From Pseudomonas sp. G.S.17 (GTDB lineage Bacteria > Pseudomonadota > Gammaproteobacteria > Pseudomonadales > Pseudomonadaceae), in the NCBI RefSeq assembly GCF_038096165.1, contig NZ_CP151076.1, positions 3,531,501 to 3,595,500 on the forward strand: 64,000 nt of DNA, given 5' to 3'. Both the position numbers and the translations under genes were made by a program. Below, piece after piece: positions 1 through 64,000 of the stretch. Each line of letters starts with the position of its first letter. The stretch's first letter is position 1. Under the pieces are notes generated by a model, which was not told where the DNA came from, ran no database searches, and worked only from the letters and a program-made list of their open reading frames with translations.

Positions 1-837
1 GTGTTTCACGGAAAATTTGGCCGTGTCGCGTTGCTCAACATGGATCGAGCCTTGGTGACTCACACCCATTCCGAATGCCACGTGCTGGTCAAGGTTTCCG
101 GGGAAGACACCTACTTCAACGTCAATGGACGGCGAGTTCCCCTGGCGGATCGCAGCGCAGTGCTGGTCAATGCCTGGGAGCCGCATTTCTATGACCCGCA
201 ACCCGGGGCCGGCAATACCCTGATCCTGGCGCTGTACATCGAACCGGCATGGCTGGCCACCGCTCAGCAGTCGCTGGCGCTGAGTGCACGGCCGGACTTC
301 TTCCCGCATCCGTGTATTGACCTGTCGCTGCAGATTCGCACCCTGGCCGATATCCTGATTGCCGAGATGCACGGCTACGGGTTGGTCCCCAAGGAGCGCA
401 TCGAGTTCCTGCTGTTCGATTTCCTGATCCAGTTGATCGAAGACTTTTCCCAGTGGCGCCAGCTATGGCGCCAGGGTGCGCCGAGTCATGGCGAGTTTCG
501 CGACGCACGCATCCGCCGTGGCACGGCTTACTTGCTGGAACATCTTGAACAACCCGACCTGATCGACAACGCGGCGCGTGCCAGTGGATTGTCCAGAGCG
601 CACTTCTTCGCCCTGTTCAAGAAAGACACCGGCATGACGCCGACCCTGATGGTCAACGACGCCCGCATGCGCCGCGCGTTTACCTGGCTGGAGCGCGAGC
701 GCAGCGGCACTCTCGGACTGCTGTCGGAGAGTCTCGGGTTCTCTGAGCAGGGCCATTTCACCCGCTTCTTTCGCCAGCACATCGGCGCCTCACCGAGCCA
801 GTACCAGCGTGTGGTGGACAGCTACGCCAACAGTTGA
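1..837 (+). CDS. AraC-family transcriptional regulator (may extend upstream of window)
   Basis: One-component regulator of about 278 residues. The N-terminal half looks like an AraC-type cupin sensing domain, with the HTHSECH stretch near residue 21 and a run of short beta-like segments to about residue 90. The C-terminal ~100 residues carry the two helix-turn-helix units of AraC proteins (ASGLSRAHFFALFKK, then SLGFSEQGHFTRFFRQHIG ending in the typical PSQYQR). The reading frame begins with GTG at the first base of the window, so neither the true start nor the ribosome site can be judged. The effector and targets cannot be told from the sequence. The neighbouring membrane protein is convergent, so the likely target lies outside the window. 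Family assignment is firm; function is open. Confidence 0.9.
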   Translation: MFHGKFGRVALLNMDRALVTHTHSECHVLVKVSGEDTYFNVNGRRVPLADRSAVLVNAWEPHFYDPQPGAGNTLILALYIEPAWLATAQQSLALSARPDFFPHPCIDLSLQIRTLADILIAEMHGYGLVPKERIEFLLFDFLIQLIEDFSQWRQLWRQGAPSHGEFRDARIRRGTAYLLEHLEQPDLIDNAARASGLSRAHFFALFKKDTGMTPTLMVNDARMRRAFTWLERERSGTLGLLSESLGFSEQGHFTRFFRQHIGASPSQYQRVVDSYANS

Positions 838-34543: not shown

Positions 34544-34824
34544 CGAGACAAATTCCACTTTGGTTTGGGCAGCAAGCTTGATCCGTTGCCCATTGGGCGG
34601 ACCGGATGGCGTGTATTTCCTGAAGAGCATGTTACTCCGCAGGTTCAAATCAGTTATTGATCCTGTCATCGGGAACAACGGCACTCAGCGTCATTCAAAC
34701 AAACTGAGCTTGCGTAATTTGATACTGTGTCATCGGATTTTTCGACGCAAACGCATTTTGGTGATTTTCTGCTCGTTACTTGAGCCTGCTTCACCCGTCT
34801 CAAAAGCCTTCAAAGGGAAAAATT

Positions 34825-37083
34825 TTGACCGCTATCGACACTGAAGCATCGCTGCAAGCCGCTATCGATAATTGCGCTCGGGAACCTATTCGCATCCCGG
34901 GCAGCATCCAGCCTCAAGGCTTCCTGATCGTCATTGATGAAGCGGCGATGAAGATCGTCCAGATCAGCGAAAACATTGCGCAATGGCTGAATATCGAGCA
35001 GACATCCCTGTTGGATATGGAGCTGGATGCGCTCGTCGAGAATGGCTCAGCGTACGTGGCCCAGCTGGGTGAACTTGACGAAGATGCGTCGCAGCCCTGC
35101 CACGTTGGTGATGTCACTTTCCTTCAGGGCGATCAATCCGGCCACCCGGTCGCGATGATGCTCCATCGCAACGATGACGTGTTGATTGCCGAGTTTGAAC
35201 CTGCCGGCGACACGGCTTCCGCTCACGGCCGGCTGTATCCGTTGGTGCGTTCGTTCATCAGTCAGATGCGTGAAGACGAAAGCGTTGACGAACTGTGTAA
35301 TCGCTCTGTGTCCTTCATCAAGCGCATCACCGGCTTCGGGCGGGTCAACAGTTATCGATTCGATAAAGACGGCAACGGCGTGGTCAACGCCGAGCTGGCC
35401 AACGATGGCTACCCCAGCTATCTGGGCCTGTGCTTCCCGGCGTCGGACATTCCCCGCCAGGCGCGCGAGCTCTACTGCGCCAACCGCATCCGGATCATTG
35501 CCGACGCCAACTACGTGCCCTCCGCGATTATCCCGGCGATCAACCCCAGGACCCAGCGCCCTCTCGACTTGAGCTATGCGACCCTGCGCAGCGTTTCGCC
35601 CGTGCATCTGCAGTACATGCGCAACATGGGTACCGGGGCATCCATGTCCATCTCGATTGTGGTTGAGGGTGAACTGTGGGGGCTGATTTCCTGCCACAAC
35701 TCAGAACCCCGCTCTGTCAGCTTTCAGACCCGCTCGGCCTGCGAACTGCTGGGCAGGGTGCTGTCATTGCAGGTGGAAACCAAGGAGGCTCACCTGCGCA
35801 ATCAGCGCATGCTGGGCCTGCGAAGAGACATCGTCCAGATGTTGGCGGCAATGGCCGATCAGGACAGCGTGTTCAACGGGCTCAAAGCCCTGCCTGATAC
35901 GTTTATCCGTTTTGTCGGTGCCACCGGCGCGGCGGTCGTCTCTGATAACGAATGCGACCTGTACGGCCAGACACCGCCGGAAGGACAGGTTCGGGCGCTC
36001 GCCGCCTGGCTGACCAAACGCAATGGAGCGGATGTCTTTCACACCGACAATGTCGGGGTGGAAATTCCGCAGTTGCCCGGGCTGGCCAAATCCGTGAGCG
36101 GCGTTTTGTCCGTATCCATCTCCGTGCTGCATTCGAACTTCCTGATCTGGTTCAAATGCGAGCAGGCCCGTACCGTTCATTGGGCGGGAAGACCAGAAAA
36201 AGCCATTGATCAAAGCGGCTCGTTAAGTCCCCGTCAGAGCTTTGATCTCTGGAAACAAAAGGTCGAAGGCTTCTCCACGAGCTGGGACGCAACCGAACTG
36301 GAAGGTGTCGCCGAACTACGCCTTGCTGTGCTCGGAATTGTCTTGCGCAAGGCGGAGGAAATGGCCCAGCTGACCATCGAGCTCAAGCGCAGCAACAAAG
36401 AGCTTGAAGCGTTCTCCTACAGCGTTTCCCATGACTTGCGCGCCCCGCTGCGCCACATTGCCGGCTATGCCGAGTTGCTCACGGACATGGAGCAGGGAAA
36501 CCTCACCGAACGTGGCCAGCGTTTCCTGGGCACCATCGGCGAGTCAGCAAAATTTGCCGGGACGCTGGTGGACAACCTGCTCAGTTTTTCCCAAATGGGC
36601 AGATCGGCAATGCGTCAGTCAGAGGTCGATCTGACCGCCATGGTCGAGTCGATCCGGACTGAAATGCAACCTGACTACGAAGGCCGGACGATCGAGTGGG
36701 TGGTTCGGGACCTGCCGGTCATCATTGCCGACCCTGCGTTCCTGCACCTGGCGATGCGCAACCTTATCGCCAACGCCATCAAGTACACCCGCACCAAAAC
36801 GAACGCCGTCATCGAGATCGACGCCTTCAAACGCGACAACGTTGTCGAGGTCAGCATCCGTGATAACGGCGTGGGCTTTGACATGCAATACGCAGACAAA
36901 CTGTTCGGGGTCTTCCAGCGCCTGCACCGGATGGAGGAATTTGAAGGCACTGGCATCGGCCTGGCCAATGTCCGGCGGATTATCGAGCGTCATGGCGGCA
37001 CCGTCCGGGCGCAAGGCGTGCTCAACCAGGGCGCGGTCTTCTCCTTCACCCTACCCATTCAAACCCTGAGTCCAGTTGCCTGA
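34825..37083 (+). CDS. bphP: Bacteriophytochrome histidine kinase
   Basis: A 752-residue photoreceptor kinase. Order: PAS with the biliverdin-binding cysteine (Cys17, AAIDNCAREPIRIPGSIQ), GAF with the DIP motif (FPASDIPRQARELY) and the chromophore histidines (SVSPVHLQYMRN; LWGLISCHNSEP), PHY with the tongue motif PRQSFDLWK, then HisKA (YSVSHDLRAPLRHIAGYAEL) and HATPase. The start is TTG at 34825 behind AAAGGG. The otherwise invariant PHG after the PAS knot is PQG. No heme oxygenase gene is next to it, so biliverdin must come from elsewhere. Phosphotransfer partners are probably the next two genes. Confidence 0.95.
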   Translation: MTAIDTEASLQAAIDNCAREPIRIPGSIQPQGFLIVIDEAAMKIVQISENIAQWLNIEQTSLLDMELDALVENGSAYVAQLGELDEDASQPCHVGDVTFLQGDQSGHPVAMMLHRNDDVLIAEFEPAGDTASAHGRLYPLVRSFISQMREDESVDELCNRSVSFIKRITGFGRVNSYRFDKDGNGVVNAELANDGYPSYLGLCFPASDIPRQARELYCANRIRIIADANYVPSAIIPAINPRTQRPLDLSYATLRSVSPVHLQYMRNMGTGASMSISIVVEGELWGLISCHNSEPRSVSFQTRSACELLGRVLSLQVETKEAHLRNQRMLGLRRDIVQMLAAMADQDSVFNGLKALPDTFIRFVGATGAAVVSDNECDLYGQTPPEGQVRALAAWLTKRNGADVFHTDNVGVEIPQLPGLAKSVSGVLSVSISVLHSNFLIWFKCEQARTVHWAGRPEKAIDQSGSLSPRQSFDLWKQKVEGFSTSWDATELEGVAELRLAVLGIVLRKAEEMAQLTIELKRSNKELEAFSYSVSHDLRAPLRHIAGYAELLTDMEQGNLTERGQRFLGTIGESAKFAGTLVDNLLSFSQMGRSAMRQSEVDLTAMVESIRTEMQPDYEGRTIEWVVRDLPVIIADPAFLHLAMRNLIANAIKYTRTKTNAVIEIDAFKRDNVVEVSIRDNGVGFDMQYADKLFGVFQRLHRMEEFEGTGIGLANVRRIIERHGGTVRAQGVLNQGAVFSFTLPIQTLSPVA

Positions 37084-37561: not shown

Positions 37562-37588
37562 CCCTTATTGATAAGCGCAGTCGACTTA

Positions 37589-39967
37589 ATGCCATTGAAT
37601 GCACTGAGAATCCTCCTGATTGAAGACAGCCCGCACGATGCGGAGCTGGCACTTCTGGCATTGGAAGCCAGCGGCATCGAAGTTGACTCAACTCTGGTTC
37701 ACAACCACCACGGCGCGGCTCAAGCCCTGAGCCAACAGGTATTTGACGTCGTTCTGTGCGACTTCCTGCTGCCGGGTTCCTCCGGCGCAGACGTGCTGAA
37801 AATCGCCCAGCAGCTGACCCCCAAGACCCCTTTCATTTTTCTGTCAGGGATTTTCGGTGAGCAGCAGGCAGTGGAAATGATGCGTCTGGGGGCGGTGGAT
37901 TACGTCCTCAAGCAAAACCTGAAGATGCTGCCCAAGGCCGTCAAGCGGGCTGTCTCCGAGGTCCGCGAACGCGCACAACGCAAGGCCGCCGAGTCGGCGC
38001 TGCAAGACGTTGAAGTACGTGCCCGGTTGGCCATCGAGGCGGCAATGATGGGCGTCTGGGAGCTTGAACCGTTGACCGGGCGGGTGCTGTGGGATGAACG
38101 CTGCAACGCCTTGTACGAAATACTCCCCAACAGCCCCGTCGACCTGCCGTTTCTTCTGGCCCGCTGTCATCCGGATGATCGAGCGCAGCTTGAGCTGAAA
38201 ATCAACGAGGCCATGTCAAAGGAAGCCGACTACCAGATTGAATACCGGGCGCTGATGCCGAGTGGTCGATCACGCTGGTTGTTTTCCAATGGACGCTCGG
38301 TGTTTGAAAATGGCCAATGTGTACGCTTCACGGGTGTGATGCAGGACATCAGCGAGCGTAAGCAGGCGACCAGGGAACTGGTGGAACTCAACAAAGCGCT
38401 GGGCGCACGCGTTGAACTGCGAACCCGTGAGCGCGACCGCACCTGGGAGTTGTCCCGGGAGTTGCTGGCCGTGTTGCAGCTCGACATGACGCCCATATCG
38501 TTCAACCCGGCGTGGGAAGCGGCTTTGGGCTGGTCCAATCAGCAGATCAGCCAGATGCGCCTGTGGGAATTGATCCACCCGCTGGATCTTGACGCCACAG
38601 TCGCAGAAGTCGCGAGCATTGCACGCGGCAATATCTCGACCCGCTTCGTCAATCGCATGAAGCACCGCTCCGGTGACTATCGCTGGCTCTCCTGGACAAT
38701 CGTACCCGAGGACGGACTGATGTATGCCGCCGTTCGCGATATCACCGAAGAACGCGCGGTAATAGATGAACTTGCCGCTGCCAACAAACTGCTTCGCGCG
38801 CAAATCAGCGAGAAAGAGCGCATAGAAGCCGACCTGCAGCAGATGCAGCGGCTTGAAGTGGTCGGCCAATTGACGGCTGGCGTGGCCCACGATTTCAACA
38901 ACCTGCTGACCGTGATCCTGACCAGCACCGCCTTCGCTATCCGCGATATCGAACGCGGCACACTGGACAAGACCATCAACCGTTTGCAGAACGTCAAGGA
39001 TGCCGGGGAACGCGGCGCACGGCTCACCGCTCAGTTGCTCTCGTTTTCGCGCCGGCAACGGTTGCAGCCTGCGGCGATCAGCCTGAACGACACGATCCGC
39101 AGCATGGGGACTCTGCTGGTCCGTGCATTGGGAGGCAGCGTCTGGATTGAAACCGATCTGGCCACCGACCTCTGGTACGCCATGGGTGACCCGACGCAGA
39201 CTGAAATGATCATCCTCAACCTTGCCATCAACGCGCGCGATGCGATGGCAAAAGGTGGTCCCCTGTCCTTCTCGACCTTCAACGCAGAAATCACCAGGCC
39301 TGCAGTGCGCCCCGAGGATCCGGAACCGGGTAAGTATGCGGTTCTGGCCATCAGCGATTCGGGGAGCGGGATGAGTGCGCAGACGTTGAAGCGCGCATTC
39401 GAGCCGTTCTACACCACCAAGGATGTCGGTAAAGGCTCAGGGCTGGGCCTGGCCCAAGTGTTCGGATTCGCCAAGCAGTCAGGCGGCGGCGTCATGATCG
39501 AGAGTGAACTGGGCGTGGGTACCAAGGTGATGGTCTATCTGCCCAGTGTGGCCAAACCTGAGACCCTGCCGAAAGAAATCCCGGCAGAGCCAGATCCCGC
39601 ACACGAAGCCGGTTCGCACACCATTCTTCTGGTCGACGACGACCCTGACGTCCGCTCCGTTACCGTGCAGATGCTTGATTCCATGGGTTACACCGTGAAA
39701 CAGGCGCAGGACGGCGTCGAGGCTCTGGAAATGCTCAATCATTCCATCGATCTGGTGCTGACCGATTTCGCCATGCCTGGCATGACAGGTGGTGAGCTGG
39801 CCGCACTGATCTATGAAAACCATCCGGAAATACCGGTGCTTTTCGTGACCGGCTATGCCGATACCGATGTGCTGGGTCTGGAAGGCTCGCTGGTAGTACA
39901 AAAGCCGTTCAACGAAAGCGATCTGCAGGCCAAGCTGCATAAAGTGTTGAGCAACAGCAAACGTTAA
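37589..39967 (+). CDS. Hybrid histidine kinase, REC-PAS-PAS-HisKA-HATPase-REC
   Basis: A 792-residue cytoplasmic sensor kinase without membrane segments. An N-terminal receiver (ILLIEDSPHDAELALLALEA; VVLCDFLLPGSSG) is followed by PAS domains (about 135-265 and 290-400), a HisKA box (GQLTAGVAHDFNNLLTVI), an ATPase domain with GKGSGLGLAQVFGFAK, and a C-terminal receiver (ILLVDDDPDVRSV; VLTDFAMPGMTGG). The ATG at 37589 is preferred to an upstream TTG. It lies 27 bases after the receiver gene and belongs to the phytochrome operon, so it likely couples light input to further signals. Confidence 0.94.
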   Translation: MPLNALRILLIEDSPHDAELALLALEASGIEVDSTLVHNHHGAAQALSQQVFDVVLCDFLLPGSSGADVLKIAQQLTPKTPFIFLSGIFGEQQAVEMMRLGAVDYVLKQNLKMLPKAVKRAVSEVRERAQRKAAESALQDVEVRARLAIEAAMMGVWELEPLTGRVLWDERCNALYEILPNSPVDLPFLLARCHPDDRAQLELKINEAMSKEADYQIEYRALMPSGRSRWLFSNGRSVFENGQCVRFTGVMQDISERKQATRELVELNKALGARVELRTRERDRTWELSRELLAVLQLDMTPISFNPAWEAALGWSNQQISQMRLWELIHPLDLDATVAEVASIARGNISTRFVNRMKHRSGDYRWLSWTIVPEDGLMYAAVRDITEERAVIDELAAANKLLRAQISEKERIEADLQQMQRLEVVGQLTAGVAHDFNNLLTVILTSTAFAIRDIERGTLDKTINRLQNVKDAGERGARLTAQLLSFSRRQRLQPAAISLNDTIRSMGTLLVRALGGSVWIETDLATDLWYAMGDPTQTEMIILNLAINARDAMAKGGPLSFSTFNAEITRPAVRPEDPEPGKYAVLAISDSGSGMSAQTLKRAFEPFYTTKDVGKGSGLGLAQVFGFAKQSGGGVMIESELGVGTKVMVYLPSVAKPETLPKEIPAEPDPAHEAGSHTILLVDDDPDVRSVTVQMLDSMGYTVKQAQDGVEALEMLNHSIDLVLTDFAMPGMTGGELAALIYENHPEIPVLFVTGYADTDVLGLEGSLVVQKPFNESDLQAKLHKVLSNSKR

Positions 39968-58998: not shown

Positions 58999-61900
58999 TC
59001 ATGGTGTTGCAGCGGGTTCCACGTTGACCTCCAGTGGCTCGGGAAAATCGACGTGCTGCGCGACTGGCACATCCCTCGATTGCTCCAGCAAATCGCTCAA
59101 CTCAGCATGCAACCGCTGCAAAGCACCTTCCTTGTCGACCCACCATTCGGTGGACCACAACCGCAGCAAATCCCAACCTAGACCGCGCAGAATCGCCCCG
59201 CGCACCTTGTCGCGGTCACGGGCGGTTGCCGCGCTGTGATAGGTCGCGCCGTCGCATTCGACACCCGCGAGGTAATCGCCCGGACGGTCGGGATGAACAA
59301 TCCCCAGATCAATGCGGAAACGTGACACGCCGATCTGCGGCACCACCTGCCAGCCCATCCGACGCAGCCCTTGCGCCACAGCTTCCTCGAACGGCGAATC
59401 GTAGCTGCCCACCGAACCCTGCACCGCCTCGGCCAATGCCCTCGGGCCGCGCTGGGCAAATTCGATGAAGTGTTTGAGATCCCGCACCGCGCGAGCGTTG
59501 GTGCGATTGAGATCGATCATCGACGGATCGAAGGACGAGAACACCAGCATCTCGCGACGCGAACGGGTAATGGCGACGTTCAAGCGCCGCCAGCCGCCGT
59601 CCTTGTTCAGTGGCCCGAAGTTCATCGACATCACTGGCGCACCCGGCTCGGTAGGTCCGTAACCAATGCCGAGCATGATCAGATCGCGCTCGTCGCCCTG
59701 TACCGTTTCCAGGTTCTTCACCACAACCGGTTCAGTCTGGCTGTCCTGAAAGAAGGGTTCGATCTGCGGGTATTGCTGACGGGCAGCGTCCATCAGGTCG
59801 TTAATGAGCTTCTGCTGATCGGAGTTCAGCGTGATGATGCCGATTGAATAACCCGCAGCAATGAACACCGGATCAGTCAGACGCTTGACCGTTTCCTGAA
59901 CGATGGCCTCGGCCTCCACCTGATTGCAACGCCCCTTGCCCTTGGCATAAACACCTTCGACACGCCGCCACTCGACCGCGCTGGCCCGGGTTTCAGCGGC
60001 CGGAAAGGTGATCAGGCTGCTGTCGTAATAACGGTGGTTGGAAAACGCGATCAGGCTTTCATGGCGGCTGCGGTAGTGCCAGCTGAGGCTGTGACTTGGC
60101 ACACCGGCACCCAGGCATTCGTCGAGAATGCTTTCCATGTCTTCGGCCGTGTCGTCGTCCTCGGCATTTGCACTGCGGTTGAAGAAATTGGTTGGCGGCA
60201 TCTGGCGTGGGTCACCGGCAATGACCACCTGTTTGCCCCGCGCGATGGAGCCGACGGCGTCCCAGGGCGCGATCTGTGACGCCTCGTCAAAGATCACCAG
60301 ATCGAACGGCGGCTGATCGGCCGGCAGGAACTGGGCAATCGACAGCGGACTCATGAGCATGCACGGCGCCAGCCGGTTCAGCGCATCGCCCATCTCGATG
60401 GCCAGCTGACGCACCGGTTTATGCCGCCGGGACTTTTGCAGCTCATGCTTGAGAATGGCGAAGCCGCTGTTCTTGGCAATGTCGTTCTTCGACGGAATCA
60501 GGCCACACAGCTTTGCGCGAATGTAGCGCACGGTGAGTTTCGCCAGCTCGTCGTCCAGACGGTTGAACGTGGCGATATCGCTCATATGCTCGGCAGCGAC
60601 GAAGGTTCTCAGCAATGGCTCGCCATCAATGCCTACTGTGGCAAACCAGTGGGAATACGCAGTAACAAACGTCGCTTCGATGGCCGAAGGCGGCAAGCTG
60701 CCCTGCTCCAGCGCCTGAGCCAAAGGCGCGAGCCCTGCTTCGCCCGCCTGCTCGCGGACCCGGCACCAGTCGCACCACGCCTTGAGCTGTCCTTCCTGTT
60801 GCTCAATAGCGGCACACGTCGCACGAAGCTCGGCAACGCTCGGCAGCATTTCGCTTTGGGTCACGGCCAGCTCGGCAAATAGCCGGACGGCGTCATCGTA
60901 GCGGGCCACGGCCTGCTGCAAGGTCGCCAGTGCCGTAGCGATCTGGCCGCCCGCGCCAAGCATGTCATTGGCGTCAATCACCAACCGTGACACGGCACTG
61001 CGCAACGCGATCAACTGCTCAGGTGACTCAACCAGCGCCCTGAGCCGGGCACGCAAACTTTCCGCCAGTACCACGGCTTTAAGCGTGCGGGCGCTGTCAC
61101 TGGCAAGTCCGTTCCAGCCGGGAATCGATTGCAATTCGGGAGCCAGCTTGTCCAGCTCCAGCAATTGCGCCTGCAAACGTTCAAAGATCAGCAGATCGCC
61201 TGGCACGTCCGGCAAACCCGCAGCACCACCCACCAAAGCCAGCTGCGTGGCGACTTTCTTTTTGCCGAGGTTAGCGAAGAACCAGAACTTGCCCTCGGCC
61301 TCTTGCCAGTCCCTGCGCATGGCCTCGACAGGAACCCGGCGACAGGCTTCGTCGGCGTAGTTCAGCGACAGACTTTCCTCCAGCTCGCGGTAATCGGCGA
61401 GCAACTGGCAAGCGTGCCGGCCGGCTTCGATACGCGCAATGGCATCCGGCGCGAAGGCGAACGACAGGTTCAGGCCGTGGCATTCAACGAGCAGACCGGC
61501 CAGATCATTCAGCTGTTGAAGGTGCGCCACTTCCGTTACCGGCAACGACAAGTGCGTCAACGCCAGTATTCTTTCAGCAGCGCTGATCAGGGCATCAAGT
61601 GCTTGGGGCAGTTCGCGGGCGCTGCTGACGATCTGCGCTTGCCAGGCGTTGGACCATTGGGTCTGCGCCAGCACACCAAACTTGCCCGACAGGTCACGCG
61701 CAGCGGTGCCATTCAGTCCCAGGCGGCGGGCGAGATCCAGCAAACCCGCGTACTGGTCCGCATCGTGTTCAATGCCTGCCGACCACGCCAGACGCGGCGT
61801 CGCGGGGCCATGGTCGCGCACGACACGACCAATGGCCTGATGCAACGACAGGCCGTTCGGCCAACGTCGATGCAACACTTCGACCATTTGATTGAGTCGC

Positions 61901-64000
61901 GAACGCAGCGTCTGTAACCGGTCGGCCTCACGCTGCCACTCCTCGGTGCTCAAGGTGTCGCGTACATCCCAGGCGCGGTCCAGTTGTTTGAGGACCTCGA
62001 CCTTGGACGCTTTGCTTGAATGCAGCTCCAGGCAAAATTCGCCCAGGCCTTTCTCTGCCAACCGGCGATACACCACGTCGAGTGCTGCACGCTTTTCCGC
62101 CACGAATAGCACGCGACGGCCGAGTGCCAGGTTGTGGGCGATCATGTTGGCAATGGTCTGGGATTTGCCGGTACCGGGCGGCCCGTCGAGCACGAAGCTG
62201 TGTTTACCCGCAGAAGCCACCACTGCCGAGAGCTGCGACGAGTCTGCCGCTAAGGGGGTGAACAGCTGTGCCGGTGTTACGGTCGCGTCGAGCTGCTCGG
62301 GGCGCGGGAAATCATCAGAGCCGGCAAAATCTTCACCGCCTGCATCGCGCTCCAGCAAGTGCCGGACCAGCGGGCTTTGCAGCAGCTGTGCTGCGTTGGC
62401 ATTGAGATCTTTCCACATCAGGTACTTGGCAAACGAGAAGGTGCCGAGCACCAGTTCGGTACTGACTTCGAACCCAGGCACATCGCGGACGGCGCGGCGC
62501 ACCTTATTCCAGATGCCCTCGACATCAATGCCGCTATCATCGCTCGGCAAATCGCCGTCCAGCCCCGGAATGACCAGCTCGAAATCGTGGCGCAGAAGTT
62601 CCAGCAACGTCAGGTTGAAGCGCGGTTCTTCGTCCAGCAAGCTCAGGGTGACCCCCGACAAGGCGCTTTTGCGTTCGAGTTTGACGGGCAGCAGAATCAG
62701 CGGCGCAGAGTAGCTTTTCGGGTCGTCGACACTTTTCTTCCACTTGAGAAAACCGATTGCCAGGAACAGCGTGTTCGCCCCGCCCTCCTCCAGATCGCTG
62801 CGTGCCTTGCGGAACAGATCAATCAACGTCGCTTCGAGTTTGGTTTTTTCCAGACTGGCAAGCACTTCGCCGCGAGCCAACGCCTGACGCGCGACTTCAT
62901 CGACCAGACTTTCATGATTCTGCTGTTCATAGAGTGCGGAGTCACGGCCACTGCTGTTCAGGTCCGGCACGGCCAGCACGCGGATACGCTGGCCGCTGGA
63001 CAGCAGATCTTCCAGAGCCGCCGGATCAGGGCACAACAAACGCACACCTTTGGCACTGTCCGGCAGGTGCAGCAAGCGATTGCGGGTGGTGAGGTCGAGC
63101 AGTTTGCGCTGCCAGAGCGTCAGCTTGCCTGCTGGCCCATCGCTGCTGTCGTTGATTTCCACGTCGAAGCCGGGCAGTAACGGCGCTTCTTCCAGGCCTT
63201 CAACAGCCGGTGGCGTTGCATCCGCCTCGGCTGGCGAATTCGGGCCGGGGGCCAGGGCTATCGGGCGAATCTTCTGCATCCGCGCGCGATGCACGTCGAT
63301 GGCCATGATGAACTGTTCATCGTCCAGTTGCCGCTCAGCAGCGGCGACTGCCTGACTGAAACCCGGCACCGGTGCCTGAGTCGCCAGGGTGGTTTCGAAC
63401 ACCACCATTTCCTTCAAGTCCAGGCGCTTGCGCACCGCCGACGCCTCGTCGGTCAACAACTGCGAGAACTCCTGAGGCTGCAGCCAGACACCCGCGAAAG
63501 CGTGGCCTTTGGTCATGATCAGCAAGGCATTCAACCCGGCCTGCTCCAAGGCGGCGGCAAACAGCAGCGCGGTGTCCAGACAGGTCGCCACGCCGTTTTC
63601 CAGGATCATGCCTGGCGGCCGGATTCTCTGGCCCTGCTGCTCGAAACTGGCGGGTGGCAGCGCGTAGCTCAGCTTGAAACCGCAGACTGCGGACCAGATC
63701 GCGGAAGCCAGTTCCCAGGTCCGTGTGCGTGACTTGCTTTCATAGCCGTCAATGCCGTCTTTCTTCCCGGCGCGGCGCAATACCTGCGAAGCGGCTTTGA
63801 GCACGCGGTCGACCGCAGGATCATTGGGCATGCAGAACGCAGCCAGCAACTCAGGCATGGCGCTGAGACCGCCCCACTCCGTGCGCGCCAGCAGTTCGGT
63901 CGCAACGCGTTGCTCGACGATCAGTTCGTCGCCCCGAGACAAGCGCAGCACGACTTCGGCGCCAAGGCTTTCAGTAAGGCCAGCCAGATAACCGGCGTTG
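58999..64000 (-). CDS. Large transglutaminase-like/SF1 helicase/Vsr-like nuclease protein (5' end outside window)
   Basis: More than 1650 residues; the frame is open to the window edge, so the start is not seen. Four parts can be read. (1) A transglutaminase-like module: GVATCLDTALLFAAALEQAG with a Cys (codon at 63580-63582) and GHAFAGVWL with a His (63502-63504). (2) A DUF4011-like region (LTLWQRKLLDLTTRNRLLHL). (3) An SF1 helicase split by a long insert: Walker A DGPPGTGKSQTIANM, Walker B LVIFDEASQI, GDPRQMPPT, WHYRSRHESL, VQGDERDLIMLGIG and NVAITRSRREML. (4) A C-terminal Vsr/REase-like nuclease (FRIDLGIVHPD; GVECDGATYH). Role unknown; a nucleic-acid surveillance or defence function is inference. 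Confidence 0.9.
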   Translation of the reverse strand, partial: NAGYLAGLTESLGAEVVLRLSRGDELIVEQRVATELLARTEWGGLSAMPELLAAFCMPNDPAVDRVLKAASQVLRRAGKKDGIDGYESKSRTRTWELASAIWSAVCGFKLSYALPPASFEQQGQRIRPPGMILENGVATCLDTALLFAAALEQAGLNALLIMTKGHAFAGVWLQPQEFSQLLTDEASAVRKRLDLKEMVVFETTLATQAPVPGFSQAVAAAERQLDDEQFIMAIDVHRARMQKIRPIALAPGPNSPAEADATPPAVEGLEEAPLLPGFDVEINDSSDGPAGKLTLWQRKLLDLTTRNRLLHLPDSAKGVRLLCPDPAALEDLLSSGQRIRVLAVPDLNSSGRDSALYEQQNHESLVDEVARQALARGEVLASLEKTKLEATLIDLFRKARSDLEEGGANTLFLAIGFLKWKKSVDDPKSYSAPLILLPVKLERKSALSGVTLSLLDEEPRFNLTLLELLRHDFELVIPGLDGDLPSDDSGIDVEGIWNKVRRAVRDVPGFEVSTELVLGTFSFAKYLMWKDLNANAAQLLQSPLVRHLLERDAGGEDFAGSDDFPRPEQLDATVTPAQLFTPLAADSSQLSAVVASAGKHSFVLDGPPGTGKSQTIANMIAHNLALGRRVLFVAEKRAALDVVYRRLAEKGLGEFCLELHSSKASKVEVLKQLDRAWDVRDTLSTEEWQREADRLQTLRSRLNQMVEVLHRRWPNGLSLHQAIGRVVRDHGPATPRLAWSAGIEHDADQYAGLLDLARRLGLNGTAARDLSGKFGVLAQTQWSNAWQAQIVSSARELPQALDALISAAERILALTHLSLPVTEVAHLQQLNDLAGLLVECHGLNLSFAFAPDAIARIEAGRHACQLLADYRELEESLSLNYADEACRRVPVEAMRRDWQEAEGKFWFFANLGKKKVATQLALVGGAAGLPDVPGDLLIFERLQAQLLELDKLAPELQSIPGWNGLASDSARTLKAVVLAESLRARLRALVESPEQLIALRSAVSRLVIDANDMLGAGGQIATALATLQQAVARYDDAVRLFAELAVTQSEMLPSVAELRATCAAIEQQEGQLKAWCDWCRVREQAGEAGLAPLAQALEQGSLPPSAIEATFVTAYSHWFATVGIDGEPLLRTFVAAEHMSDIATFNRLDDELAKLTVRYIRAKLCGLIPSKNDIAKNSGFAILKHELQKSRRHKPVRQLAIEMGDALNRLAPCMLMSPLSIAQFLPADQPPFDLVIFDEASQIAPWDAVGSIARGKQVVIAGDPRQMPPTNFFNRSANAEDDDTAEDMESILDECLGAGVPSHSLSWHYRSRHESLIAFSNHRYYDSSLITFPAAETRASAVEWRRVEGVYAKGKGRCNQVEAEAIVQETVKRLTDPVFIAAGYSIGIITLNSDQQKLINDLMDAARQQYPQIEPFFQDSQTEPVVVKNLETVQGDERDLIMLGIGYGPTEPGAPVMSMNFGPLNKDGGWRRLNVAITRSRREMLVFSSFDPSMIDLNRTNARAVRDLKHFIEFAQRGPRALAEAVQGSVGSYDSPFEEAVAQGLRRMGWQVVPQIGVSRFRIDLGIVHPDRPGDYLAGVECDGATYHSAATARDRDKVRGAILRGLGWDLLRLWSTEWWVDKEGALQRLHAELSDLLEQSRDVPVAQHVDFPEPLEVNVEPAATP

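Follow-up and report, generated by a model that had tools for sequence, protein, structure and literature searches.

Giant bacterial proteins that join a transglutaminase-like peptidase, an SF1 helicase and a Vsr-family REase in one chain, with no modification gene (the MTES_1575 type), were proposed in 2013 as stand-alone defence, a proposal that included protein cleavage and in which the tail was to recognise the invading DNA (accessible text of PMC3710099). The protein described here resembles them in all three domains; unlike the HEPN giant protein of that type in the same accessible text, it has no HEPN domain (Pfam, E up to 0.5), and unlike MTES_1575-type proteins as set out there it has no winged-helix/DUF3320 region, either in the protein, in the fetched flanks or in the genome. 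A works-like analogy can be drawn with Hachiman HamAB, in which a sensor helicase restrains an effector nuclease (PMC12278908, in its available part); HamAB is a pair of proteins, and the likeness drawn here is one of function. Long parts of the Hhe profile (NF042953) also align with our protein, at 820.5 bits, which is far below the cut-off of 2000; Hhe is listed as 'Gao Hhe' in the available part of PMC11291487, and the available part of PMC9519451 does not mention it.

The closest described family is a curated one. NCBIfam release 20 model NF058533, an equivalog named 'anti-phage protein ProA' with a cut-off of 1500, scores the full protein at 2082.9 bits and the window part alone at 2020.1 bits. 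The alignment spans model positions 2-1720 of 1903, and since the last 183 positions (1721-1903, the DUF3320 region) are absent we file the protein as a short form and not as the full architecture; coverage of those positions is no criterion of the model's cut-off. By curated score, this copy is an intact member of an already catalogued anti-phage family, in a short variant, and is about 46% identical to the form of about 2210 aa that scores highest in the genus. The PADLOC profile PDC-S37, a candidate defence family, is matched over most of its length (1121.9 bits, profile positions 9-1348 of 1550, which correspond to window-ORF residues 292-1644; PADLOC states no cut-off for it). We take the PDC label to denote a candidate family without a tested function. 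In Mokosh systems a helicase is fused to, or partnered by, a nuclease of the PLD type. Membership in Mokosh was considered and rejected: MkoA and MkoC score 82.6 and 67.7 bits with the best stretch in the helicase, and no PLD family is found by Pfam, whereas a PLD-like domain is listed for Mokosh in the available part of PMC10952713.

An initial annotation, made from the letters of the DNA, had guessed that this gene is a single-gene defence system, and the ProA and PDC-S37 matches agree; they also supersede its statement that the protein cannot be assigned to a named defence system. Its inference is an independent rediscovery of the idea printed in 2013 (accessible text of PMC3710099). A literature search, with subscription papers mostly outside it, turned up neither a paper that gives this protein the name ProA nor a phage test or a printed mechanism for the ProA family.

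Domain layout and proposed mechanism

The giant protein noted in the window (the whole 64,000-nucleotide stretch of Pseudomonas sp. G.S.17 that was analysed) is real. Its open frame runs off the window edge, and the full gene, with an ATG start and 1743 codons, begins 231 bases beyond the window frame (Table 1). We regard the protein as more than a chance frame because the frame is kept across phyla and because 13 close pairs of tail-less genes have dN/dS values of 0.06-0.14. Conservation was read from a 108-row alignment in which some rows are one gene fetched twice and from which 3 of the 80 fetched loci were left out (L087, frameshifted; L096 and L122, cut). Conserved in it are the Walker A, DEASQ, HYRSR, VQGD and NVAxTR motifs of the helicase and D1641, E1658 and H1665 of the nuclease. 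The helicase does contain an insert of about 530 aa, one of the least conserved stretches of the protein, and a variable linker lies between the transglutaminase-like domain and DUF4011.

Table 1. Features of the gene in window coordinates; residues are numbered throughout on the full 1743-aa protein, and the window frame starts at residue 78. Row counts refer to the 108-row alignment.
Feature	Coordinates	Strand	Evidence
Gene part in window (residues 78-1743 of 1743 aa)	58999..63999	-	full gene in its own genome L002:500-5731 (-), start equivalent to 64230; NF058533 2082.9 bits
End of N-terminal beta-sandwich (residues 1-114; in window 78-114)	63889..63999	-	
Transglutaminase-like domain (residues 117-325)	63256..63882	-	
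Cys217 codon, proposed nucleophile	63580..63582	-	C in 108/108 rows; V, A or P in 7/7 readable genes of one sibling clade
His243 codon	63502..63504	-	108/108 rows
Glu279 codon, third residue of proposed triad	63394..63396	-	108/108 rows
DUF4011 (residues 376-546)	62593..63105	-	PF13195 153.6 bits, cut-off 22.2
SF1 helicase, first part with Walker A (residues 656-760)	61951..62265	-	AAA_11 from residue 663, 59.5 bits, cut-off 27; 34/105 columns invariant
Walker A GPPGTGKS (residues 683-690)	62161-62184	-	
Long variable insert (residues 761-1290)	60361..61950	-	16/530 columns invariant, mean major-residue frequency 0.55
SF1 helicase, second part, DEASQ to NVAxTR motifs (residues 1291-1600)	59431..60360	-	AAA_12 at residues 1367-1565, 54.0 bits, cut-off 27; 89/310 columns invariant
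Vsr-type REase_MTES_1575 nuclease (residues 1614-1711)	59098..59391	-	PF18741 114.4 bits, cut-off 38.2; 28/98 columns invariant
Short unconserved end (residues 1720-1743 and stop) where a DUF3320 tail would stand	58999..59073	-	no DUF3320 in own genome

An earlier fold search with residues 1-376 returned matches filled by the beta-sandwich, and the transglutaminase-like domain was then modelled and searched alone. The model of residues 115-330 has a pLDDT of 91.7 and matches mostly transglutaminases and other enzymes of the transglutaminase superfamily. The model has the alpha/beta fold, the Cys at a helix start and the His on a following strand that define transglutaminase-like proteins. The closest sequences to the motor are SMUBP-2, Sen1, Dna2 and Upf1 chains, enzymes that act on ends, flaps or single strands. 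The domain reading of the initial annotation (transglutaminase-like, SF1 helicase, Vsr-like nuclease, DUF4011) is borne out by Pfam, conserved residues and the fold search, and so is the long insert that it saw inside the helicase.

On this evidence, and on that of the distribution, the neighbours of relatives and the natural variants given below, we think it probable that the gene encodes an anti-phage system of the ProA kind that consists of one protein, here in its short form, with a predicted mechanism that leads from a sensor motor to a nuclease. The SF1 motor (Upf1/Dna2/SMUBP2-like) would scan nucleic acid, its choice of substrate aided by the fast-evolving insert and by DUF4011; engagement of an abnormal phage intermediate (a free end, gap or fork) would be the trigger, upon which ATP turnover would release or position the C-terminal Vsr-fold nuclease, and this would cut that DNA. 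The Cys-His-Glu arm would be accessory; its most likely role is that of a protease or of a switch working by self-processing, which would either tune the threshold or target a protein of the phage or host. A sensor motor and an effector nuclease in one chain is the best-supported model, with the variable insert as the likely site of specificity and the arm as a regulator or second effector. That this copy restricts phage is inferred, as are its trigger and substrate, the order of events and the target of the arm.

Distribution and genomic neighbourhood

The family is patchy in the window's genus, where 31 of 298 genomes carry a copy over the NF058533 cut-off (one comparison of genus copies has 31 rows and leaves out genome G015, which is over the cut-off only with joined pieces). 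Scanned with this protein, the GTDB species genomes yielded 454 loci that encode a relative, and the best 80 of these, which were kept, reach Alphaproteobacteria, Verrucomicrobiota, Chlorobiota, Bacteroidota, Thermodesulfobacteriota and Campylobacterota; within these best 80, copies from Microvirga, Verrucomicrobiota and Enterobacterales are about 58-66% identical to this protein and lie mixed among the Pseudomonas rows in the tree. Matching plasmid records number 441 (244 from Klebsiella), with at least 80% of the query contained in 67, and in one plasmid examined insertion-sequence transposases flank the gene on both sides; 1 of 50,697 phage records matches, at 37.7% identity. In sibling genus g6, a copy of 1711-1713 aa is present in 10 of at least 13 genomes listed. 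From this gene length we guess that g6 is the P. oryzihabitans group; six named Pseudomonas (P. oryzihabitans, P. rhizoryzae and relatives) have copies of the same length with shared neighbours. This frequency and the shared neighbours look like a resident gene and speak against a purely mobile picture. On the housekeeping distribution that the initial annotation would have counted against defence, the outcome is mixed: the gene is patchy in the window's genus and frequent in g6. A separate record, L072 (CP089930.1, labelled E. coli E69), has a ProA-like gene with no megablast match in 5,426 E. coli genomes, and its species label is possibly wrong.

This copy lies among metabolic genes and has host-like composition (G+C 0.612, GC3 0.727). 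Just outside the window (L002:5894-11787), dctA and genes for a 2-hydroxyacid dehydrogenase, a glyoxalase-like protein, HMG-CoA lyase, CaiB and a LysR regulator stand between the gene and a GntR gene; upstream, where the initial annotation pointed for partners and mobile elements, the neighbours are metabolic. Among the loci examined, P. syringae GR12-2 and Pseudomonas sp. CFII64 have a copy at the same site as the window, beside a TonB receptor, and both lack there the six metabolic genes from dctA to the LysR regulator. An empty site could be proved at neither flank: all 10 further genomes compared at the TonB receptor share only the receptor, and all 8 compared at the GntR-aminotransferase-MFS block have no copy nearby but differ in the other flank. 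Among the 14 copies compared, from 13 genomes, there are about ten neighbourhoods, four pairs share theirs, and the short-form loci were not seen to have any neighbour in common.

Defence genes were sought around 20 loci picked by choice, with 144 of 149 ORFs scanned; these 144 neighbour ORFs match 269 PADLOC families (E up to 1e-10), many families hitting the same protein, and the lead families are type I methyltransferases (4 members) and specificity subunits (3 members). When ten neighbour proteins were checked singly, four did not match at E up to 1e-30 and six did: GajA (L064), a type I MTase and an S subunit (L108), an S subunit and LmuA (L114), and PDC-S46 (L066). The 49 ORFs of this window, a smaller and unmatched control, gave one PADLOC family in one ORF. 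Some relatives keep defence company (Gabija, type I R-M, Lamassu); this copy does not. Two local arrangements may be recorded here: in Alcanivorax jadensis (L114:2562-5199) a type I specificity subunit gene is followed by the LmuA (Lamassu) match near the ProA-like gene, and in the window a bacteriophytochrome-like protein (34780-37083, below the model cut-off) is followed by a large histidine kinase (37568-39967).

The strongest competing explanation is that the protein is a resident genome-maintenance helicase-nuclease, engaged in Dna2/Upf1-like repair or RNA/DNA hybrid processing and called anti-phage by resemblance only. The metabolic neighbours of this copy, the Upf1- and Dna2-like motor and the frequent occurrence with partly shared neighbours in sibling genera all fit such an enzyme, as does a DUF4011 gene that is core in every P. 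aeruginosa isolate, at the flank of hotspot cDHS1 (available part of PMC10250203; the feature shared with our gene is DUF4011). A housekeeping enzyme would sit less easily with the patchy occurrence in the window's genus, the copies on plasmids, the defence genes beside some relatives and the curation of the family by NCBI as anti-phage, and we consider this explanation unlikely.

The arm and the tail in natural variants

The Cys-His-Glu triad is unbroken in every row of the main set, so the arm has a role there that is worth keeping and is not dispensable in most of the lineages sampled. Sibling genus g10 has 8 copies over the cut-off, matched from about model position 100 to 1720, and 7 of the 8 genes are readable (L196-L199 and L201-L203; L200, where an antisense frame was read, is left out). 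In these the N-terminal sandwich and the tail are absent, Cys217 is replaced in all seven (V, A, A, A, P, A, V), His243 is kept and Glu279 is changed to Asp, while the Walker A, DEAS and arginine motifs and the nuclease residues are intact in 7/7. The Cys-less genes form one branch with support of 100 among 28 rows with Cys in a midpoint-rooted tree, and within it dN/dS is higher for the arm than for the nuclease in 4/4 pairs (0.17-0.53 vs 0.08-0.20), nearly equal in one of them (0.166 vs 0.157). The simplest reading is that catalysis was lost and constraint relaxed.

Eight further relatives (L204-L211; 1601-1642 aa), six from the genus scan and two from sibling genera, score 1434-1464 bits, just below the ProA cut-off, and are near relatives that are not ProA by that cut-off. 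At most 43 residues precede column 350 in them, and the fetched flanks contain no arm either (best E 2). All carry a tail, 209-212 residues long, their best piece is 38-42% identical, and the residues of helicase and nuclease are intact in 8/8. Because both the Cys-less and the arm-less relatives keep the helicase and nuclease residues, the helicase-nuclease is likely the core and the rest accessory. The initial annotation had given the protein a protease- or transferase-like arm that could act on protein targets; the same idea was printed in 2013 (accessible text of PMC3710099), but these two groups weaken the case that the arm is essential. They also bear on the explanation that the arm is the effector and the helicase-nuclease only a sensor, so that DNA, once recognised, would set the arm to cleave or cross-link a protein of host or phage in abortive infection: the transglutaminase-like fold and the complete triad are what such an effector would have, yet one clade does without the Cys and the relatives just below the cut-off do without the whole arm, and we hold this explanation to be quite improbable beside that of a sensor motor coupled to a nuclease.

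DUF3320 is present in 7/7 tailed relatives scanned, 73-133 residues past the nuclease, and tail-less proteins end 0-43 residues past column 1719 in the 90-row tree set. With a tail defined in the tree by a length of at least 150 residues and not by a domain match (DUF3320 itself was verified in the 7 tailed proteins), 27 of the 90 rows are tail-less, L123 and L126 among them lying near contig ends. Tail presence requires 11 changes on this tree (1719 shared columns), at least 9 of them forced by branches with support of at least 95; the tree is a quick one that leaves out 18 rows (identical ones and 10 listed long-form ones), and the count is blind to gain versus loss and could be inflated by recombination. 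Loss is supported as the direction because tails occur across the phyla sampled and because two snapshots of it were found. In P. petrae an out-of-frame tail remnant stands at the end of the short-form gene (L080:13258-13425; 56 residues, 48%, E 2e-5). In P. cerasi, compared by BLAST with the same site in strain KUIN-1, 665 bases are absent with 12 bases in their place, the absence ending, in the BLAST alignment, at the stop codon of the tailed gene; across the first 1719 residues the tail-less gene and the tailed KUIN-1 gene are 96.6% identical. The fetched flanks were searched for a split-off DUF3320 gene and gave none (the queries included the end of L087, whose matches there are nuclease), and this strain's own genome (6.27 Mb, 2 contigs) has no DUF3320 match.

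The short form is not dying: tail-less genes are under strong purifying selection, the 13 close and partly overlapping pairs giving 0.02-0.10 for the nuclease part, and a 14th pair, L112-L114, has a dN/dS of 0.04 with dS saturated. That the short form is a decaying remnant, made non-functional by loss of the tail, is very unlikely, since the P. petrae remnant and the repeated tail changes that suggest it are set against this low dN/dS, the intact catalytic residues and the frequency of the short form in a sibling genus. The repeated changes, together with selection on the tail-less genes, also speak against the tail as the recogniser of invading DNA.

From these variants we put forward, tentatively, that ProA-type proteins are modular. 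DUF4011, the SF1 helicase and the Vsr nuclease are the only part present in every variant seen; the DUF3320/winged-helix tail would be repeatedly shed and hence not be the DNA-recognition part, so that recognition would reside in the helicase, the insert or DUF4011; and the arm would be a detachable regulator that works by cleaving itself or a protein of phage or host, and that can lose its activity and stay on as scaffold, or be missing altogether, without an end to defence. The family and the domain-based idea of defence were already known, and what is new is the short form without the tail, the finding that tails have changed repeatedly and the relatives in which the Cys or the arm has been lost naturally. 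Copies without the tail, copies without the arm's cysteine and near relatives without the arm are natural deletions and so ready-made comparisons: P. cerasi against KUIN-1, with the other variants, would assign sensing, switching and cutting to their modules, and would show if an arm that cleaves protein plays a part in a defence protein directed at DNA.

Tailed and tail-less copies also occur side by side in a single genome, G022, which has a 1945-aa tailed copy (C1:311719-317466) and a 1743-aa tail-less copy (C43:91002-96173) at different sites.
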